Shown: piece by piece, positions 20,022-29,510 of the stretch
How the letters are laid out: each line of letters begins with the position of its first letter
Position numbering within the stretch: position 1 is the stretch's first letter
Assembly (NCBI GenBank): GCA_017504435.1
Contig: JAFVRD010000043.1
Span: 1 to 42,642 of the forward strand
Direction: 5' to 3'
From: Lentisphaeria bacterium
GTDB lineage: Bacteria > Verrucomicrobiota > Lentisphaeria > Victivallales > Victivallaceae
DNA length: 42,642 bases
Notes under the pieces: model-generated
Databases searched by the model: none
Seen by the model: the letters and a program-made list of their open reading frames with translations, nothing else
What the model was told of the DNA's origin: nothing
Position numbers and translations under genes: made by a program

Positions 20022-20482
20022 AATTCAGACCGGAAATTTATGGCATGATCGCTGTGACCGGGCTTTTGACAGGGTGTATGTCATATCCGCCGGCAGAAAA
20101 GGCCGTGACACTGCAGCAGTTTGATTCTGCCAGTGAAGCTGCCGGACAGAAACGTGCCGCAGCTTTTGCCAACGGTTTTGCCCAGGCATTGAAAAACGGC
20201 GATTTTTCTTTGTGGCAGACGCAGATGCCGGAGCATGTCAAAAGCCGGGTCAATGCCGGGATTTTCGCCCGGATGCGCGAAGAATTGACCGGGATGTTCG
20301 GCGAATTTGAGTCCGGCAGATATCTGGGCAGTTTGCAGAACCGGGATTTGCGGGATCATTTGTGGGTGTTGCGGTTCAAGAAGGATGGGAATGTCCGGGA
20401 AATAATATATCTGGTGCGGATATTCCGCAATGAAAAAGGTCTTCCGGAAATAAGCGGTTTCGGAGTCAAGAGGTCATTATGA
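20018..20482 (+). CDS. Small lipoprotein of unknown function
   Basis: A 154-residue predicted lipoprotein: MKFRPEIYGMIAVTGLLTGC ends in a lipobox with Cys at residue 20. The mature part (FANGFAQALKNGDFSLWQTQMPE, then VSRVNAG-like helices and LWVLRFKKDGNVREIIYLVRIF) has the helix-then-beta pattern of NTF2/DUF3887-like domains, but this is not certain. An upstream ATG at 19940 is rejected because it lies in mutM. The ATGA overlaps at both ends show translational coupling to mutM and the LexA-like gene. No catalytic motif is seen. Confidence 0.7.
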   Translation: MKFRPEIYGMIAVTGLLTGCMSYPPAEKAVTLQQFDSASEAAGQKRAAAFANGFAQALKNGDFSLWQTQMPEHVKSRVNAGIFARMREELTGMFGEFESGRYLGSLQNRDLRDHLWVLRFKKDGNVREIIYLVRIFRNEKGLPEISGFGVKRSL

Positions 20483-21171
20483 GTGTTACAGAAAAACAGC
20501 GAGGATTGTACAGCGCGATCAAAGAAAAAATTTCCCGTACAGTCAGATTTCCATTGCGGTTGACTGACACGGCACAGCGGTTGGGGATACCGTTGCGGGA
20601 ATTGTATGACACTCTGTGGCAGATGTACCGGAAAAAACTTCTTGACCGGGAAATCGACATCCGGGTGCAGCTGCAGCCGATACTTGATAAAAAGTATGTC
20701 AATGCCGCTCATCTGGTCAGCGCACCGCTGCTCACCCCGGAAGAGGTGTTGCGCGGTGAATATATCCCCGGTGACGGACAACGGCATTTTGCCACGCTGG
20801 CTCTGCCCCGGGAATTTGCCGGAGAGACCGGACGGTACTGCAGTTTTCAAGTTTCCGATAACGTTATGGAAAAAAGACGGATATACAAAGGGGACATTGC
20901 GATATGCAGTATCGGACAGATGCCCCGTCACGGGGCACCGGTATTGTGTGTGATGCCGGGAGGCGAGGTGTGCATCCGGAGTTTTTACACGACCAATACG
21001 CCGTTTTTTGAATTATCCACTCCGGATCATGAAGAAGCTGTGATGCTCAGCTATTACAGCGATTGGCACCGGGTCGTCGGGGTGGTGATTTCGGTACAGA
21101 AGTTCATTCTTGCCTGGGAAGGGGCATCGATGAAACATATTTCAGAACCATTGGAGGATAACGGATGGTGA
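20479..21171 (+). CDS. LexA-like protein with a degenerate S24 peptidase site
   Basis: A 230-residue protein. Residues about 5-60 look like a winged helix-turn-helix (LTDTAQRLGIPLRELYDTL). Residues about 110-210 fit the LexA/S24 beta domain: VSDNVMEKRRIYKGDIAICSIG aligns with the GDSM...GD element, and VCIRSFY with the catalytic Lys element, ending WHRVVGVVISVQKF. The nucleophile position reads Val129 (DNVM for GDSM) and the Lys position reads Arg167. The protein should therefore fold as LexA but not self-cleave. It overlaps its neighbours by 4 and 7 bases. Role: possibly a non-inducible repressor or a repurposed scaffold; unknown. Confidence 0.65.
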   Translation: MSVTEKQRGLYSAIKEKISRTVRFPLRLTDTAQRLGIPLRELYDTLWQMYRKKLLDREIDIRVQLQPILDKKYVNAAHLVSAPLLTPEEVLRGEYIPGDGQRHFATLALPREFAGETGRYCSFQVSDNVMEKRRIYKGDIAICSIGQMPRHGAPVLCVMPGGEVCIRSFYTTNTPFFELSTPDHEEAVMLSYYSDWHRVVGVVISVQKFILAWEGASMKHISEPLEDNGW

Positions 21172-22340
21172 AATTTACCGCATCAGAGAGAGATTCGCTT
21201 ATCCGGCGTGCCGCAGATATACCGGAATTGCTGAAAAAAAATCTTTACAGTTACGCCCCGGATCGTCCGCCGGTTTTGCTGGCGGGGGCTGATTATTACG
21301 GAATATGGGTGGAACATAATCAGGATGCTTACTTTCTGGCAGATATGTTTCCGGAAGCAGCCTGGGAATCCCAGAAAATATTTATGGATAATCAGCGTGC
21401 CGATGGATTGATACCTGCCGCAGTGCGCTTTGAACCGCGCGTAGTGCGTTACGCTCAGCTGCAGACGGTGTGGCCGTTTGCCCGGTGCGCTCTGGCTGTT
21501 GCCGATAAATGTCACCGGCCGGAAGAGGATTATGCGCGCATCTACCGCTGTGCATGTGACTATGACGGGTTTCTGCTGAAGTACCGGAACCGTTCCGGAA
21601 GCGGCATGGTGGAGATGTTTTGCGAATATGATACCGGTCATGACCGTTCACCCCGGGTGAAAGATGGCGGCATTCCGCATGCCTGTCCGGATGGAGATGC
21701 TGCTAATATGCCTGAATTACCCTGCATGCCCTTGATCGCTGCCGACCTTTCTGCCATGCGGTTCGGAGCTTTGGAAGCGATGGCTGAACTGGCGGAACGT
21801 CTGGGCAAATCGCCGGAAGCGGCGATACATAAAGAACAGGCACTGGAATTGAAATCCCGGATGATGGAGAAACTTTTTGATGCCGGAGATGAATTTTTCT
21901 ATGACCTTGCTCCGCAGGGATTGCGAAAATACCGTACGGAACACATTACCAGAATATTTCTCAATAAAGTGGTGGATCAGGAGCTTTTTGACCGTATTTA
22001 CAACCGGTATCTGGCTCCAGGGAAAGAATTTTTTACCTCATTCCCTTATCCGGCGGTCTCCCCGGAAGATCCCTCTTTCTGTAAAGAACTGCCGATGAAT
22101 TGCTGGGGTTCAAATACCCAGATGCTGACTCTGATCCGGGCATTGATCTGGATGCCTGAATATGGAAAAAACGCCGATTTGCAGGAAATTCTGGGCAGAT
22201 TTCTGCGGGCATATTGTGATTACAGCAATGATTTTACCCAGGAGATCAATCCATTCACCGGAGCTCCGGTATCAGAAAGTGCGAATTATTCGCCGTCATT
22301 GCTTTTGTTCAAAACGGCATGTGAAATATTGAAAGGGTGA
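21165..22340 (+). CDS. GH63/MGH1-like (alpha/alpha) glycosidase
   Basis: A 391-residue protein without a signal peptide. The motifs SQKIFMDNQRADGLIPAAV, QLQTVWPFARCAL, FCEYDTGHDRSPR, NCWGSNTQMLTLIRAL and FTQEINPFTGAPV match the six-hairpin MGH1/GH63-like glycosidase domain, where the DxGxD-like region and the late Glu act as candidate catalytic acids. A cytoplasmic trehalase or glycan-trimming role is possible; the substrate is not readable. It starts 7 bases inside the LexA-like gene. A carbohydrate enzyme inside a DNA repair operon is unexpected. Confidence 0.75.
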   Translation: MVKFTASERDSLIRRAADIPELLKKNLYSYAPDRPPVLLAGADYYGIWVEHNQDAYFLADMFPEAAWESQKIFMDNQRADGLIPAAVRFEPRVVRYAQLQTVWPFARCALAVADKCHRPEEDYARIYRCACDYDGFLLKYRNRSGSGMVEMFCEYDTGHDRSPRVKDGGIPHACPDGDAANMPELPCMPLIAADLSAMRFGALEAMAELAERLGKSPEAAIHKEQALELKSRMMEKLFDAGDEFFYDLAPQGLRKYRTEHITRIFLNKVVDQELFDRIYNRYLAPGKEFFTSFPYPAVSPEDPSFCKELPMNCWGSNTQMLTLIRALIWMPEYGKNADLQEILGRFLRAYCDYSNDFTQEINPFTGAPVSESANYSPSLLLFKTACEILKG

Positions 22341-22342
22341 GT

Positions 22343-23185
22343 ATGGCACTGGAATTGAATCAGCGGACTGTTTTCAGGCGAACCGGAGAATTTGCCCTGC
22401 TTTATGATCCTGACCGCAAATATACCGTGTCGTTGAATAAGACCGGAATTATGATTTATGAATTGCTCCGGAAATTTGATGATTTGGAAACGGTTTTGAC
22501 CGAATTTGCCGGAGATGACCGGGACAAACGCGGGGATGTGGAAAACTTTTTGCGAATGCTGACCAATGCCGGTTATCTTGCCGGATACGATACACCCGCT
22601 GAAATAAAACCGGCAGTCGCACAATCCGTTTTGCCGGATGAACACAAATATTGTATCGGCAACAGTATGTCCGGCACCTTTGAAACCGGCGACCGTCTGG
22701 AAGTATGCAATTGTCCACCTGCCAGATTGCAGCGCGGAGATGTGATAAGTTTTTTAAGCAGAAACGGTATTTATGTCGGACACCGGATCGTCGGAGGCAG
22801 AACCGGACGCTGGATAACCATGGGGGATAATAATGACAGATTTGATCGTCATCCGGTGACATTGGAACAGAACCCACGGCTTATAACCGGGAGAGTCCAT
22901 TTCGGCAGATATTATCCTGTCGCCGGTGGTAAAGCCGGGATGCGGCATTTTTATTTTGTCCGCTTCAAACGCCGCTGCCGCCGGATAGGCATTGCCATTG
23001 TCAAAACTCCCGTGCTGTTGTTGCAGAAGTGTTGTTTCTGGAGAAAAACTCCCGACCGGCAGACTGATTTCGGCAAACTGATCCAGTATTCATACCGCGG
23101 CAAAGTCATCGGTTGGAAAATCAACGGCAGGATCGTTTACGCCCGGCATATTTTACGTTTTTCCTACCGTTTGCCATCGTTGTAA
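22343..23185 (+). CDS. PqqD-like domain fused to an S26-type signal peptidase-like domain
   Basis: About 280 residues. Residues 1-85 resemble PqqD/RiPP-recognition domains (ALLYDPDRKYTVSLNKTGIMIYELL, then VENFLRMLTNAGYL). Residues about 100-190 resemble S24/S26 peptidases: GNSMSGTFETGDRLEV with Ser108, RGDVISF, YVGHRIVGG with His137 and MGDNNDRFD with Asp152. This Ser-His-Asp set is that of the ER/SipW type, where His replaces the usual Lys. A C-terminal region with Arg-rich and hydrophobic stretches (FKRRCRRIGIAIVKTPVLLLQ) may touch the membrane. ATG 22343 is chosen because GAAAGG lies 6 bases before it. A GTG 6 bases upstream would overlap the previous stop. The fusion hints at leader-peptide recognition plus cleavage. 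Confidence 0.7.
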   Translation: MALELNQRTVFRRTGEFALLYDPDRKYTVSLNKTGIMIYELLRKFDDLETVLTEFAGDDRDKRGDVENFLRMLTNAGYLAGYDTPAEIKPAVAQSVLPDEHKYCIGNSMSGTFETGDRLEVCNCPPARLQRGDVISFLSRNGIYVGHRIVGGRTGRWITMGDNNDRFDRHPVTLEQNPRLITGRVHFGRYYPVAGGKAGMRHFYFVRFKRRCRRIGIAIVKTPVLLLQKCCFWRKTPDRQTDFGKLIQYSYRGKVIGWKINGRIVYARHILRFSYRLPSL

Positions 23186-23207: not shown

Positions 23208-26200
23208 ATGGCAAAACGTTTTTTTATGGGCAGCGATAAATTTCTGCCGGAATTGATCGCTGAAAATATACTTGCCGGATATCAAAGCGGTACGGCACCG
23301 GATCTCGGTAATATCCTGTTGACTCTGCCCGGAAAACTTGCCCGGCAGAAAGTTACCGCGCAACTGGCAGTAAAAGCTGAGCACGGGGTACTGCTGCCGC
23401 AAATACTCACTCCGTCACAGCTTTTGCGTTACAATACGGAACAATCAGGTCTGCCGCCGCCCATGGCAGATGAATTATTATGGATGCAGACCGTAAAAGA
23501 GGCAGTGCGGACACCGGAAAAATTTGATCTGCTTTTTTCTGAAGTATCTCCTCCCGGAGATCATTTGGCTGCCGGACGTAAATTTCAGGCGTTGCGTAAT
23601 GAAACTTCCCGCGGCGGTATTTCTCTGGCTCAGCTTGCTCCTTTTGCCGGGGAAAGAGGCAGTCAGCTTGCCGAACTGGAAAAAATATATCTGCGGCAGC
23701 TGGAAAAGGCGGGGTATTCCGATCCGCTGGCTCTGGATCTTCTTGCTGCCGGAGATATTACGGCATTTGTTCCGGGCATGAAAATCATCATTGCCGGTAT
23801 TCCCGATATGCCCAATATGCTCCGGAAAAAACTGGAGAATATCGACCGGCTGTTCCCGGATATGATCGAAATCTGGATCCATGCTCCGGAGACGCAGCAA
23901 CATGAATTCGATCAATGGGGTGTGCCGATCGCCGATATATGGCTCAATAAACCGCTGCTGCTGCCGGAAAACAGCTGGCATTTGGTTCTCAATCCGGCGC
24001 AAGCGGCATATTTTTCAGCACATCTGGCAGTGAAACACGGCAGCTTTATGCCCGAAAAATGTGCTGTAGTACTCAGTGATCCGGAGATGACCGGAGTGTT
24101 CCGGACGGAATTCGGCAAATTCACCGATCCGCAGGGTAATCCATTGGAAGTTTTTGATCCCTCCGGAGTTCCGATGCGTAAGCTCCGGCTGTGGCAGTTG
24201 GGACATAAGTTGTGTGCATTGCTGAAAAATGATGGGGATTTTACCTGTGCAGTTGAATTGCTCCGTTCTCACGATTACATGCTGCATTTGGGGACGGCGG
24301 CGGAAATATTACCGGCATTGGATGAGTTTACAGCCCGGAGTGTTCCTGATGATTTGGCGCAGGCGGTGATCCTCGCGGAAAATGAAAATTTAAACCGTTG
24401 CGGCAGCGGAATAGTGAAAGCTGCATTGAAAGAACTCTGTAATTGGCAGAAACTGCTCAATGCGTTGAGTGTTCCGGAATTTCTGCGGGAATTTTTCCGT
24501 ACCGTTTATCCGGAAACGTTGGCTATCGACAATGAATCAGTTGAGCAGGTTCCGTTTGCCGCAGAGTGTGCTGTTTTCCGGAAACAGCTGGAGGAGTTTG
24601 AGTCCATCCCGGGAAGTGTGACCGGATTGGGCAGCAAACTGCAATTGCTGGAAATATTTTTCAATCGCTGCGGCAATGCTTCAGTTGCCGCCGTTCCCGG
24701 GAATAATGCTTACGATCTGGAAGGGTGTCTGGAGATGCCGTTTCTGGATGCTGAACAGATCATTTTCTGCGGACTGAATGATAAATTTTTCCCGGATCGT
24801 ATTGATACGACTCCGTTTCTTACTGATTCCATCCGCCGGAAAGCCGGATTGCGGAGCAACCGTGAAACCGGGGCGCGGGCGCGTTGTCATTTGCAAAGTG
24901 TGCTGGAATGCCGGAAGTCCGGGAATGTGGATTTCCTGATCTTGCGCCGGGATGAAACCGGGGACGTACTGCGTCCGTCAACTTTACTTTTTGCCGGAGA
25001 TGCTTTGCCGGAACATGAGTTGATGACCCGTTGTGATCTGCTTTTCAAAGACCCGGACATATTGCCCGAAGTGGCCGGAATATACGGGAAAAAACAATTC
25101 CGTCTCCTGCCGGAATTGGATTGTCTGCGGGAAAAAGATTCCGGTTTGCCGCGGTTATCGCCCACATTTCTGGATGATTATCTGACTTCTCCATATCTTT
25201 TTTACCTGCGGAGAGTCCGGCAGGCAGAAGTTGTTGAATATTTACGTGAAGAACCGGATGCCCGGCTGTCGGGTATTTTACTGCACCGGGCGGTGGAGCT
25301 GCTCGGAACGGCGCATTTTACTTCTGCGTCGGCTTTGGAAAAGGCTTTGGAGCGCAATTTTGACCGGGCACTGGCAGAACGTTTCGGTGAACCGCCGCAT
25401 CCGGTTCTGATCGGGCTGCTGGCTGATAATCTGCGGCAGCGTTTGAAGCCGGCAGCTGAATTGTTGTTCCGGGAACAGTGCCGTGGATTTCAGCCGCTGG
25501 CGCATGAATATAAATTGGAAAATGTGGAACTTGCCGGAGCATTATTTTCCGGAAAAATAGACCTCATTGAATATAATCCCGGCTTGAACATCCTGCGTAT
25601 CGTGGATATGAAAACCGGCAAATACGAGCCGGTGGCAGATGCACATTGCAAAAAATCCGGAGCAAAAATCGAATTTCACAAATTACAGCTGCCGCTTTAT
25701 GTTCTGCTGTTGAAAAGCGATCCCGGATTTCGGGAAAAATTTCCGGAGACTGCCAATGCCGGTTTTGAATGTGCTTATCTGAATTTACCGCAGAGTGTTA
25801 CTGACAGTTGTCTGGAAGTCTGGAATACGGAAGATTTTGAAGCTGTCCTGCCTGCGGCATTGGAAAAAACCGCTCAGATCATTGCCGGAATTTTGAATTT
25901 CCCGGAACATATATTGTCTGAAAATCCCGATAAATTCCGGAAAAACCGCAAATGCAAAGATTGGCATTTCCTGTTCCCCGGCGGGATGCGTAACGGAATT
26001 GCCGGTGTGAAATGGGATGAGCCGGAACCTCCATCTGCCGGAAGTGATTCTGCGGAGGGCAGGAAAAAAAAGTCGGTCGAAGCGGAAATCGTCACCCCGG
26101 AAACACTGGTCATCCCTGCCGCTCCGGAAAAAATATGCCGCTGTTGTGATTGTCCGGAATCCCGGCGGCAGAACTGCAGTTGTTTTCACGGGATGTCCGG

Positions 26201-29200
26201 AGATTGCAAATCTTTCAACGGATTCAAGTGTTTCAATGTCATTACCGCCTCTGCCGGTACCGGCAAGACCACCCGATTGGCAATGCGTTTTATCCAATTG
26301 CTTGCTTACGGTGCCGATCCGGCTCAAATCATGGCGGTGACATTTACCAAAGATGCCGCCGGAGAGATTTTTGACAGCATTATCAAATGGCTGCTGACAT
26401 TTGCCGGGGGAGCGTGTGATATGAATTGCCGCCAGCTTGACCGGCACGCGGTGCTGGAGATATTGCGGAAGCTGCTCAACAGTGAAAAAGAGCTGCAAAT
26501 CGGTACGATCGACAGCTTTTTTATGAAACTGGTCACGATTTATGCACCGGAATTAGGTATCTGGGGAGATATTTCGGTAACTGACCAGAAAGATTTGCGC
26601 CGGATCCGGCGCACGATCCGGGAATGGATCCGGGAGGTTTCCGGTTCCGGACAGCTCGATACGCTGCGGGAAATGCTCAAAAGTGCCAATGTCAATGAGA
26701 ACCGGGGCTTCGCCGGGAGTCTGTTGGAGATATTGAAAGATGTTTATCCATTCTACTTGACCAAAGTGCGTCGGAGCCGGAATAATATCATGCCGCAATT
26801 GGAATATTTCCCGTGGTCCCCTGATGTCGGAGAGCTGCTCGCTCCGGAAACACTGGAAAATATTTCTGATGCATTACGGGAGTTTGCCGGACAGCTCCGG
26901 GCGGAGGCTGATTTCGCCAAAACTGCTGTGGCAAAAAGTATGCGTCTGTGCGCCTCAAAAATGGAAACATTGGCAGATTTTCTGCCGGTTTCGCTGGCAG
27001 AATACGGTAAACTTGATGATGTGGTAAATGACTTTTTTGCGAATATCCTGGAGCGCAACGGTGAAAATTGGAGTTATTCGGAAGGTGAATTGTTTTATAC
27101 GCAGAAATTGACCTTCCCCCCGCTGTGTTCCGATTTGATCCGCAAGGCTTTCCGGCATATCCGGACCCGGGAGTTCGGTTTTGCCCGGCGCAAGACCCGG
27201 GCGGTTTTCGGTATGATGGAGGCGTTTGACAAAGTCTACAACAGTTTGGTGCGCAGTGCCGGTAATCTGACATTTACCGATCTGCCTTATCTGCTTTGTC
27301 ATTTTGACCCGGCGACCAGTGAAGCTATTCTCGGTCAGAGCGACCGGAGCATGGAAGCCAGACTTGATAACGAAATAAACCATTACATGTTCGATGAATT
27401 TCAGGATACCAGCGATATCCAGTATCAGGCTTTTGACGGTCTGATAAAAGAACTTGTCTCCGGTGAATCGGATCGGTTCAGATCGTTTTTCTGCGTGGGA
27501 GATATCAAACAATCCATTTATCAGTGGCGCGACGGGGATCCGGCACTCTTTGCTTACCTGCTGAATATCCTCGCTCCGGCAGCTGAAAAAAGAGGATATG
27601 ATCCCCGGGAATCGCTGACGCTATCTTTCCGGACATGTCAAAGTATTCTCAATACCGTCAACCGGATATTTGCTCCCGGTTACAGCGGGGAGCTGCCGTT
27701 TTTTGCTGATGCGGTGAAAAAAATGCAGTTTGAACCTCATTCTGCCGCCAGAAATATGGAGGGGTTTGCCGCATTGATAGAGTATGCCAAAGAGCCCGGA
27801 CGCGATACGGTGTTTGTATCCGGCAAAGCCAAAGTGATCTTTGATATCATCCGGGAGATCAACCCTCTGAAAAAACATCTTACGGTCGGTGTTCTGGTCC
27901 AGAAAAATGATACCGTTGAAGCATTTGCTGAAGAACTGCGTACATTGGCAAGAGATGCCGGATATGAATTGCCGGTTTCAGCCGACGGGGTGGTGACGAT
28001 CAGCGACAGCATGGCATTTAATGTGTTCCGCTTTATGCTGATACTTGCCGGACATCCGCAGGACACGCTGGCAAAAGAATTTCTCAATACCGTCACTTTT
28101 GATCTGCCGGGAACTGCGCCGCAGGCGTTGGGGATGGACGAGATCGCCAAAAAAATGGGATTTCCCAAAGAAGTTGCGCTGGATGAGTCCGTACGTCAGG
28201 AGATATTCCACAGCGGTATCGCCGGAGTTGCAAAACGGTTTATTGACGGATTCGGCGCGGAAATGACCCCATACGACCGCAAACGTATGGAATCAGCATG
28301 GCATGCTGCCGGCAAATTTTCCGGTACACCTGAGGAATTCATAGAGAATATTGACATTCTCAGCAGCAAAGAAGCGGCTTTGGACAATACAATTCAAATC
28401 ATGACATTTCACCGTTCCAAAGGGTTGGGATTCGATATCGTATTCCTGCCGGATACGGCAACTCCTGCCGGACGCGGCGGCAGTACGCTACTGCCGGAGG
28501 TCATGAGCATGGATATGGATATGAATAACGGAGTGTTGCCGGAACCGGAGTGGATAAGTTACCTGCCCAGAACCGGTATCACCGGTGAAGTGCCGGTATT
28601 CGCGGATAATGAACGGATGAAAAAAGCTGCCAAGGCATTTGAAAGGTGCTGCGCATTGTATGTTGCATTGACCCGGGTCAAGCGGGCGTTGTATGTAATA
28701 ATTTCACCCGGCAGCGGTTCTACCGGAATGGCCCTGGATCAGATCATGCTGGAAAGACTCCGGGGATTCGGACCTCAGGCGGCAGACCGCGAATGGTTTT
28801 CCGGAGTTCAGGAACGCACCGGTCTCGGTGATCGGCTGACATTGCATTACTCCTGCGGCAGAGAATCATGGCACGGACTGATCCCGGAGTACCGGGATGA
28901 TGTCCGGGAGATACCGGATATCCCGCGGGAGATCGCCGGCGGTGCCGGAAATGAAAAAATAATTCACGCATCCGAAGAAAAATCTTCCGTAATCAGCCCG
29001 GAACGCCGTTTCTCAACTGCCGGGGGAATGACGGTGGGCACCGGTATCCATGAGCTTATGGAGAAAATCATCCGCATTGAAGCATCAAGTTGGGATGCGG
29101 GGGAATTCTGCCGGAAAAATTTGCCGGATTCTCCTTATGCTCCGGTGATCCGCAATATTTTTTGTACCGCATTGGCTCCGGATTCAGAAATTTTCACCAT

Positions 29201-29510
29201 GCTCTGCAATGTCGATCCGGAGTGCGAAGTGTGGAACGAACGCCGTTTCATGGTCAATGTTTCCGGTTTGGGGATGGTTTCCGGAGCATTTGACCGGGTG
29301 GTCATCCGCCGCGATAACGGCGTACCGGCCGCAGCAGAAATATTTGATTGGAAAAGTGATGATCTGGCATCTCCGGAGCAGTTTCTCTGTTACGGGGAAC
29401 AGTTGCGGATCTACCGTCGCGCTCTGGCGCAGCTGCTGAATTTGCCGGAAAATTCGATCCGGGCAAATATATGTGCATTAAAGCTGAAAAAAATAATATT
29501 TGTGGCATAA
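23208..29510 (+). CDS. Single-chain AddB-AddA-like helicase/nuclease (2100 residues)
   Basis: Repair of double-strand breaks by end resection. The N-terminal half (1-1000) is AddB-like: it has no Walker A, but shows IIFCGLNDKFFPD...LTDSIRRKAGL and a PD-(D/E)XK nuclease (LHRAVELL, GKIDLIEY, IVDMKTGK with D800 and K802). The C-terminal half is AddA/UvrD-like: Walker A ASAGTGKT (1014-1021), VTFTKDAAGEI, DEFQDTS (from 1396), GDIKQSIYQWR, LSFRT, MTFHRSKGLGFD, YVALTRVKRALYV, and a second nuclease EIFDWKSD (D2047, K2049). The two halves are normally separate proteins. The motif before the first nuclease reads TSPYLFYL where AddB usually has CPF, so the Fe-S cluster is probably lost. A Cys-rich linker (near 975-1000) joins the halves. 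It starts 22 bp after the PqqD/S26 gene. Confidence 0.92.
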   Translation: MAKRFFMGSDKFLPELIAENILAGYQSGTAPDLGNILLTLPGKLARQKVTAQLAVKAEHGVLLPQILTPSQLLRYNTEQSGLPPPMADELLWMQTVKEAVRTPEKFDLLFSEVSPPGDHLAAGRKFQALRNETSRGGISLAQLAPFAGERGSQLAELEKIYLRQLEKAGYSDPLALDLLAAGDITAFVPGMKIIIAGIPDMPNMLRKKLENIDRLFPDMIEIWIHAPETQQHEFDQWGVPIADIWLNKPLLLPENSWHLVLNPAQAAYFSAHLAVKHGSFMPEKCAVVLSDPEMTGVFRTEFGKFTDPQGNPLEVFDPSGVPMRKLRLWQLGHKLCALLKNDGDFTCAVELLRSHDYMLHLGTAAEILPALDEFTARSVPDDLAQAVILAENENLNRCGSGIVKAALKELCNWQKLLNALSVPEFLREFFRTVYPETLAIDNESVEQVPFAAECAVFRKQLEEFESIPGSVTGLGSKLQLLEIFFNRCGNASVAAVPGNNAYDLEGCLEMPFLDAEQIIFCGLNDKFFPDRIDTTPFLTDSIRRKAGLRSNRETGARARCHLQSVLECRKSGNVDFLILRRDETGDVLRPSTLLFAGDALPEHELMTRCDLLFKDPDILPEVAGIYGKKQFRLLPELDCLREKDSGLPRLSPTFLDDYLTSPYLFYLRRVRQAEVVEYLREEPDARLSGILLHRAVELLGTAHFTSASALEKALERNFDRALAERFGEPPHPVLIGLLADNLRQRLKPAAELLFREQCRGFQPLAHEYKLENVELAGALFSGKIDLIEYNPGLNILRIVDMKTGKYEPVADAHCKKSGAKIEFHKLQLPLYVLLLKSDPGFREKFPETANAGFECAYLNLPQSVTDSCLEVWNTEDFEAVLPAALEKTAQIIAGILNFPEHILSENPDKFRKNRKCKDWHFLFPGGMRNGIAGVKWDEPEPPSAGSDSAEGRKKKSVEAEIVTPETLVIPAAPEKICRCCDCPESRRQNCSCFHGMSGDCKSFNGFKCFNVITASAGTGKTTRLAMRFIQLLAYGADPAQIMAVTFTKDAAGEIFDSIIKWLLTFAGGACDMNCRQLDRHAVLEILRKLLNSEKELQIGTIDSFFMKLVTIYAPELGIWGDISVTDQKDLRRIRRTIREWIREVSGSGQLDTLREMLKSANVNENRGFAGSLLEILKDVYPFYLTKVRRSRNNIMPQLEYFPWSPDVGELLAPETLENISDALREFAGQLRAEADFAKTAVAKSMRLCASKMETLADFLPVSLAEYGKLDDVVNDFFANILERNGENWSYSEGELFYTQKLTFPPLCSDLIRKAFRHIRTREFGFARRKTRAVFGMMEAFDKVYNSLVRSAGNLTFTDLPYLLCHFDPATSEAILGQSDRSMEARLDNEINHYMFDEFQDTSDIQYQAFDGLIKELVSGESDRFRSFFCVGDIKQSIYQWRDGDPALFAYLLNILAPAAEKRGYDPRESLTLSFRTCQSILNTVNRIFAPGYSGELPFFADAVKKMQFEPHSAARNMEGFAALIEYAKEPGRDTVFVSGKAKVIFDIIREINPLKKHLTVGVLVQKNDTVEAFAEELRTLARDAGYELPVSADGVVTISDSMAFNVFRFMLILAGHPQDTLAKEFLNTVTFDLPGTAPQALGMDEIAKKMGFPKEVALDESVRQEIFHSGIAGVAKRFIDGFGAEMTPYDRKRMESAWHAAGKFSGTPEEFIENIDILSSKEAALDNTIQIMTFHRSKGLGFDIVFLPDTATPAGRGGSTLLPEVMSMDMDMNNGVLPEPEWISYLPRTGITGEVPVFADNERMKKAAKAFERCCALYVALTRVKRALYVIISPGSGSTGMALDQIMLERLRGFGPQAADREWFSGVQERTGLGDRLTLHYSCGRESWHGLIPEYRDDVREIPDIPREIAGGAGNEKIIHASEEKSSVISPERRFSTAGGMTVGTGIHELMEKIIRIEASSWDAGEFCRKNLPDSPYAPVIRNIFCTALAPDSEIFTMLCNVDPECEVWNERRFMVNVSGLGMVSGAFDRVVIRRDNGVPAAAEIFDWKSDDLASPEQFLCYGEQLRIYRRALAQLLNLPENSIRANICALKLKKIIFVA

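Follow-up and report, generated by a model that had tools for sequence, protein, structure and literature searches.

An RRE domain fused to an S26 signal-peptidase-like domain in Lentisphaeria: a probable single-chain leader peptidase for dispersed, adhesin-linked peptides

The fusion gene and its locus

The window, by which we mean the whole 42,642-nucleotide stretch of Lentisphaeria DNA analysed here, encodes a 280-residue protein in which an N-terminal PqqD/RRE domain is joined through a linker modelled at low confidence to a signal-peptidase-like core, followed by a C-terminal extension. The gene and its parts are arranged as follows:

22343..23185, + strand: RRE-S26 fusion gene, 280 residues plus stop
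22343..22591, + strand: PqqD/RRE domain, residues 1-83 (Pfam match over 20-79), from profile and structure model
22598..22642, + strand: interdomain linker, residues 86-100, pLDDT below 50, from the structure model
22652..22918, + strand: S26 (signal-peptidase-like) catalytic core, residues 104-192, from profiles and structure model
22919..23182, + strand: C-terminal extension, residues 193-280, a helix (196-230) plus beta strands, from model and alignment

Translation probably starts at the ATG at 22343, although the list of open reading frames also has an in-frame GTG at 22337; the upstream gene, a glycoside hydrolase, ends with a stop 2 nt before this start codon. The C-terminal extension is also present in stand-alone S26 relatives. 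All structural readings rest on an AlphaFold model computed from a 25-row alignment of relatives (mean pLDDT 87.4); a model from two sequences was poor and was not used. A PDB sequence search with the fusion alone returned only ribosomal-protein and other chance-like matches. The first-pass annotation of this DNA had proposed a PqqD-like domain fused to a signal-peptidase-like domain, and this architecture is confirmed by a Pfam PqqD match over the cut-off, by signal peptidase profiles and by a model with two folds. The annotation had suggested a structural comparison as a check, and the two halves of the model match lasso RREs and signal peptidases; it had also named failure of the N-terminal domain to match PqqD by profile as grounds for rejection, and the domain does match.

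Two neighbouring genes of the window are worth recording in their own right. An S24/LexA-like protein (20479-21171; Pfam E 5e-5) is kept in the sister species; the positions that we take to be those of its expected Ser and Lys appear to hold Val and Arg, so it is probably not self-cleaving. A 2100-residue protein (23208-29510) unites a PDDEXK-nuclease half and a UvrD-helicase half in a single polypeptide, resembling AddB joined to AddA, and the sister species has the same single gene (2115 residues).

The RRE domain

Residues 20-79 of the fusion match Pfam PqqD with an E-value of 4e-5; the score of 24.3 bits lies above the cut-off of 23.4. The N-terminal half of the model superposes on the leader-bound lasso RRE TbiB1 (5v1v) over 84 residues (Z 13.3, rmsd 1.7), and a profile of the fusion family finds the TbiB1 sequence with an E-value of 2.8e-9. 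Three residues align with leader contacts of LppB, the RRE of the LPP RiPPs:

22436..22438, + strand: Asn32, aligns with LppB N33 (RRE alignment)
22535..22537, + strand: Asp65, aligns with LppB D70; Glu in the fusion of the second species (RRE alignment)
22547..22549, + strand: Phe69, aligns with LppB F74; invariant in all 17 RREs aligned (RRE alignment)

According to the LPP paper (PMC13381572), N33, D70 and F74 together hold the YxxP motif of the leader: N33 fixes the kink at leader Pro-13, D70 hydrogen-bonds leader Tyr-16, and F74 sits in the leader cleft. The domain meets the criteria for an RRE by its Pfam PqqD match and its RRE fold; leader binding is inferred, the contact residues N32, D65 and F69 being kept.

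The S26 peptidase domain

The C-terminal half is related to the signal peptidases of the SEC11/SipW type. Residues 104-175 match NCBIfam TIGR02228 (archaeal-type signal peptidase I; E 2.3e-10) and residues 100-175 match SipW NF046067 (E 2.4e-6), both below the curated cut-offs. The fusion family profile finds the human SEC11C sequence with an E-value of 4.1e-11, and the Ser, the His, the GDNN motif and the following Asp all line up. On the C-terminal half of the model, E. coli signal peptidase (3s04) aligns over 95 residues with Z 7.5 and rmsd 2.8, and human SEC11C (7p2q) over 88 residues with Z 6.5 and rmsd 2.4; a Z below 8 is weak by itself, and the likeness to SEC11C is also supported by the sequence profile. 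The predicted active site comprises four residues:

22664..22666, + strand: Ser108, predicted nucleophile in GNSM (conservation)
22781..22783, + strand: His147, predicted general base in GHRI (conservation)
22826..22828, + strand: Asp162, of the GDNN motif (conservation, SEC11 alignment)
22844..22846, + strand: Asp168, aligned with an Asp of the SEC11 VDD motif (conservation, SEC11 alignment)

From the role of the aligned VDD Asp in SEC11 we assume that Asp168 is the likely third catalytic residue, the acid. Ser108 had been placed correctly before, together with His137 and Asp152, but residue 137 is Phe and residue 152 is Gly; the true positions, His147 and Asp162, lie ten further on. All four residues are kept in each of the 31 homologues read, of which 29 were parsed by script and two (G010 and L062) were read from alignments. 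The set consists of 30 listed places with loci plus G052, from another family; six of the 36 listed places were left unread. Lack of the Ser/His pair in homologues, which would have overturned the earlier reading, was therefore not encountered in any homologue read. At family level, the S26 profile has matches in 28 of 78 genomes at E<=1e-8.

The fusion shares with SEC11 and SipW (S26B type) the SM, HR and GDNN...D boxes and the fold, but differs in carrying an N-terminal RRE and a C-terminal extension and in having no clear membrane helix. The N-terminal transmembrane anchor of the S26B type was not found: the 19-residue mean hydropathy peaks in the C-terminal part, at residue 215, with a value of 1.47; in the fusion of the second species the corresponding maximum is only 1.04.

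Distribution and co-inheritance of the pathway genes

Among 60 relatives, the full-length fusion occurs, besides its own genome (G000), only in a second species, G010, at 49% identity; both belong to a genus set of 34 genomes. The gene is not a chimera of one assembly, because the second species has it at the same locus, beside the same fpg, lipoprotein, S24-like and addAB genes; the glycoside hydrolase of the window was not found at that locus. Elsewhere, S26 is in most cases encoded on its own, by about 190-200 codons, and in L022 it is fused to an NTP-transferase. A PqqD gene accompanies 20 of 28 other S26 stretches (L022 included) and, by hand count, lies directly before S26 on the same strand in 12; the two are thus often adjacent separate genes in relatives, and the fusion joins neighbours. 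Genes for ScmC-like kinases, radical SAM proteins, MsbA-/HlyB-like ABC proteins and NTP-transferases recur near S26 in relatives. A literature search revealed no published RRE-S26 fusion among the matches listed, and the LPP paper was the only publication found on HprK with a RiPP precursor or on a fused RRE with a signal peptidase.

Five families were profiled across the 34 genomes: PqqD, ScmC-like kinase, S26, NTP_transf_5 and ScmE-like radical SAM. PqqD is present in 10, and the ScmC-like kinase in the same 10, with one marginal match in G027 (E 0.009). S26 occurs in nine of these 10; NTP_transf_5 exceeds its cut-off in eight, with a weak match below it in G011. The ScmE-like radical SAM protein, always below the model cut-off, is found in seven genomes, namely those with S26 and without the fusion; it is absent from G000 at E<=1e-25, and both fusion genomes and G033 are without it. 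Fisher tests, from which the marginal G027 and G011 matches were left out, gave 8e-9 to 2.5e-6 for pairs among PqqD, kinase, S26 and NTP_transf_5 (not corrected for kinship) and 8e-9 to 1.4e-4 for all pairs in the same 34 genomes (again ignoring relatedness). The RRE, HprK-like kinase, S26 and NTP-transferase are co-inherited in this genus, though scattered. At the edges of this pattern, S26 was not found in G033 (a 76% complete genome), which has candidate peptides; the fused RRE of G010 is not among the PqqD matches at E<=0.001, and a further match in that genome lies on C24 (E 6e-6).

The scatter is plain in G000, where the fusion, second RRE, kinase, NTP-transferase and peptides lie on separate contigs or far apart and not in one cluster. 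The fusion is on C41; C53 carries a stand-alone RRE, preceded by argF and an MntP-like gene; the kinase is on C37 (E 2.9e-15 to ScmC, below the model cut-off); the NTP-transferase, over its cut-off, is on C10 in a polysaccharide-type neighbourhood; and an HlyB-like ABC protein with HlyD is on C40.

Three observations concern the surroundings of these genes. The order argF, MntP-like gene, pqqD recurs for the stand-alone RRE in three species without radical SAM (L025 9690-9941, L076 3182-3430, L078 10243-10491). In the sister species, a polysaccharide-type cluster opens with a UpxY/NusG-type antiterminator gene and, directly behind it, the NTP-transferase gene (L095 4325-6044). A TibC-like O-heptosyltransferase of autotransporter type adjoins type I secretion and RRE/S26 genes (L016 13940-15430), which suggests glycosylated secreted adhesins.

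Candidate precursor peptides

That no radical SAM enzyme or precursor is found nearby, as first reported, holds for the window: motif scans for a precursor gave only chance-like ORFs there. Candidates beside the second RRE, kinase or NTP-transferase of G000 were also rejected, because the small conserved frames among the matches listed all overlap known genes; this comparison of conserved ORFs was made between the two fusion genomes and was complete for three of five region pairs. A search for short ORFs in related clusters, another of the suggested checks, did yield small ORFs with a YxxPx[L/V/I] N-terminus in relatives. A leader profile built from nine of them has six matches in G000 (E 0.0016 to 0.037) and a single poor one on the contig of the window (E 3, within a different gene). 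When ten complete peptides are made into a profile, it finds seven in G000, 16 in G010 and two in G033 (E 1e-21 to 7e-7), weak matches in G023 (E 0.019) and G026 (E 0.09), and none in the 24 genomes of the genus that lack an RRE. The seven peptides of G000 are 37-41 residues long with a YxxPxL leader. The undetected small peptide once entertained as a substrate thus looks right, but the peptides are on other contigs and not nearby.

A mixed leader profile gives 40 matches at E<=0.01, in eight of the 10 RRE genomes and in none of the other 24 (p 2.5e-6); the two RRE genomes without a peptide match are G007 and G018. Since the peptide profiles were trained on G000, G010, G023, G026, G033 and other genera, and these genomes are also counted, only the finds in G006, G009 and G030 (E 3e-5 to 0.008) are independent.

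Most of these peptides are encoded just behind long adhesin-like genes. In G000 each of the seven has another frame ending 14-59 nt before its start, and in six cases this frame ends in ...KFATLA or ...KFAKLA. Nine of the 16 in G010 start 11-14 nt after such an adhesin-like frame; five are too near a contig end to judge, one is cut by a contig end, and the peptide on C5 lacks an adhesin-like frame immediately upstream and is followed by a DUF6786 protein. The two of G033 lie 26 nt behind a 2672-residue frame and 273 nt behind a 1269-residue frame, and those of G006, G009 and G026 lie 8 to 33 nt behind adhesin-like frame ends; no such frame was seen before the peptides of G023 and G030. The term 'adhesin-like' rests on three frames, in L152, L158 and L022, and on common C-terminal endings, most frames being cut by contig ends. 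The 1269-residue frame of L158 matches Beta_helix and Chlamydia PMP repeats, the 2385-residue frame of L022 matches RTX repeats, and the 968-residue frame of L152 has no Pfam or NCBIfam match.

Leader register and core residues

The leader register was counted in 22 distinct peptides from G000, G010 and G033, with the leader Tyr/Phe as position 0 and the cut-off copy G010:C15 left out. Phe is found at Y+13 in 21 peptides and Ser or Thr at Y+18 in 20, and a small residue occupies Y+15 (position -1) in 18 and is absent in four. This register equals that of LPP: Y-16, P-13, F-3, cut, S/T+3. The LPP precursor consensus is YxxPxVLxHQxIxFETxxS, with F-3, T-1 and S+3 in the same positions, and both cleavage after T-1 and a kinase phosphate on S3 were measured (PMC13381572). 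In the peptides found here, Y, P, L/V, F-3 and S/T+3 are kept in most; H, Q, I and E are not.

The cores follow the presence of radical SAM genes. Every one of the 15 peptides that were read in five genomes with radical SAM has Cys in its core: those of G006 and G026 carry three to four, those of G009 three and two, and those of G023 and G030 one. In the three RRE genomes without radical SAM, only one of 22 distinct peptides has a core Cys. In G026, behind the end of an adhesin-like gene, three precursors in tandem (L161, contig C19, 287-983), whose cores are of the GSCY[IV]DC type with three Cys, look like radical SAM substrates.

Relation to known systems

The closest precedent is LPP. In that 2026 paper on Bacillota, the RRE LppB and the SipW-like LppS, which are separate proteins, are both needed for leader cleavage, and signal-peptidase-like enzymes are said not to have been described before in RiPP pathways (PMC13381572). 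Common to both systems are a SipW-like Ser/His/Asp leader peptidase tied to an RRE, a YxxP leader, an HprK-like kinase, an NTP-transferase, and F-3 and S+3 in the same register. They differ in that LPP has RRE and peptidase as separate genes of one cluster in Bacillota, whereas the Lentisphaeria protein is one chain, its partners and many precursors are scattered, and the precursors stand behind adhesin-like genes. By this analogy the fusion would work like LPP; it is not filed as an LPP member, because the genes are unclustered and part of the leader consensus is unmet.

An RRE and a leader peptidase in one polypeptide are also known from the fused lasso B protein, which joins the RRE to the B2 peptidase (PMC7470986); B2 is a cysteine peptidase (PMC13381572), whereas the peptidase here is of the S26 type. 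Finally, the SynChlorMet models of NCBIfam (ScmC, ScmD, ScmE) score best for the relatives' PqqD, HprK-like and radical SAM/SPASM proteins, but all matches fall below the curated cut-offs, and radical SAM is absent from both fusion genomes.

Proposed function

We consider it probable that the fusion is a RiPP leader peptidase in a single chain and serves dispersed peptides linked to adhesins, with no cleavage or binding data at hand. The first-pass proposal that the protein binds a leader and cuts it is supported by the LppB and LppS precedent (PMC13381572); binding and cleavage themselves are inferred. The fusion would probably be cytosolic, and its RRE domain would bind small precursor peptides by their YxxPx[L/V] leader, the likely substrates in G000 being the seven peptides just 3' of long adhesin-like genes, an identity that is likewise an inference. 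The tethered S26 domain would then use its Ser/His/Asp centre to cut after the leader, a task that in LPP falls to two separate proteins, LppB and LppS. The cut is predicted two residues past the conserved Phe (F-3, usually with a small residue at -1), before G-x-S/T. Modification of the core, at Ser/Thr+3 by analogy, would probably fall to the stand-alone RRE, HprK-like kinase and NTP-transferase; this modification, the order of the steps and any export are inferred. Several facts count against this reading: next to the fusion there is no precursor, kinase or exporter, all partners being unlinked; G000 has a stand-alone RRE besides the fused one; and, as noted above, G033 has peptides but no S26 that was found, G007 and G018 lack a peptide match, few of the peptide finds are independent of the training set, the PqqD matches do not include the fused RRE of G010, and four of the 22 peptides have no small residue at -1.

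The enzyme could instead act on another target, be it the adhesin-like proteins themselves, the upstream lipoprotein (already raised as a candidate in the first-pass annotation) or an unseen peptide. The fusion gene does follow the lipoprotein gene in a conserved neighbourhood, and in relatives S26 genes have type I secretion genes beside them; however, no motif resembling YxxPx[L/V] occurs in the lipoprotein, and the small peptides carry the LPP leader register and track the RRE genes across genomes, which leaves this alternative unlikely. The peptides themselves might be adhesin accessory peptides and not RiPP precursors, with the RRE/kinase set serving another purpose. Most upstream frames are indeed adhesin-like and no function of the peptides is established, but the YxxP leader, the LPP register and the Cys cores that track radical SAM make us doubt this strongly.

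It is improbable that the fusion is a mere remnant, no longer acting since the lineage lost a radical SAM pathway: both fusion species are without the ScmE-type radical SAM protein and the genes are scattered, yet Ser108, His147, Asp162 and Asp168 are intact in both at 49% identity, and the kinase, the NTP-transferase, the second RRE and the 7 and 16 peptides have been retained. Least credible is a LexA/S24-like regulator whose RRE senses a peptide and whose S26-like domain cleaves itself. Its support is that LexA, too, can be aligned with the S26 core (Z about 6.8); S24 enzymes use Lys, however, whereas the fusion has a His-type pattern with GDNN that matches SEC11 by sequence, and for its winged-helix domain the best structural matches are lasso RREs bound to a leader.

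Beyond the single-chain leader peptidase itself, a broader reading, which we hold at even odds, is that of a RiPP class with precursors dispersed over the genome, away from their enzymes and mostly just behind long adhesin-like genes (7 in G000, 16 in the sister species), so that surface fibres would be co-expressed with their own small modified peptides. Maturation would occur in trans by a single-copy RRE, HprK-like kinase, NTP-transferase and RRE-S26 fusion, and sister species would add radical SAM enzymes and Cys cores (e.g. GGSCYIDCxxDDICP).

Implications

With both functions in one chain there is no need to reconstitute two proteins, and the fusion would be a natural tool for studying how an RRE presents the cut site. 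Scattered, adhesin-linked precursors would escape cluster-based genome mining, and they would tie RiPP maturation to cell-surface proteins in Lentisphaeria.
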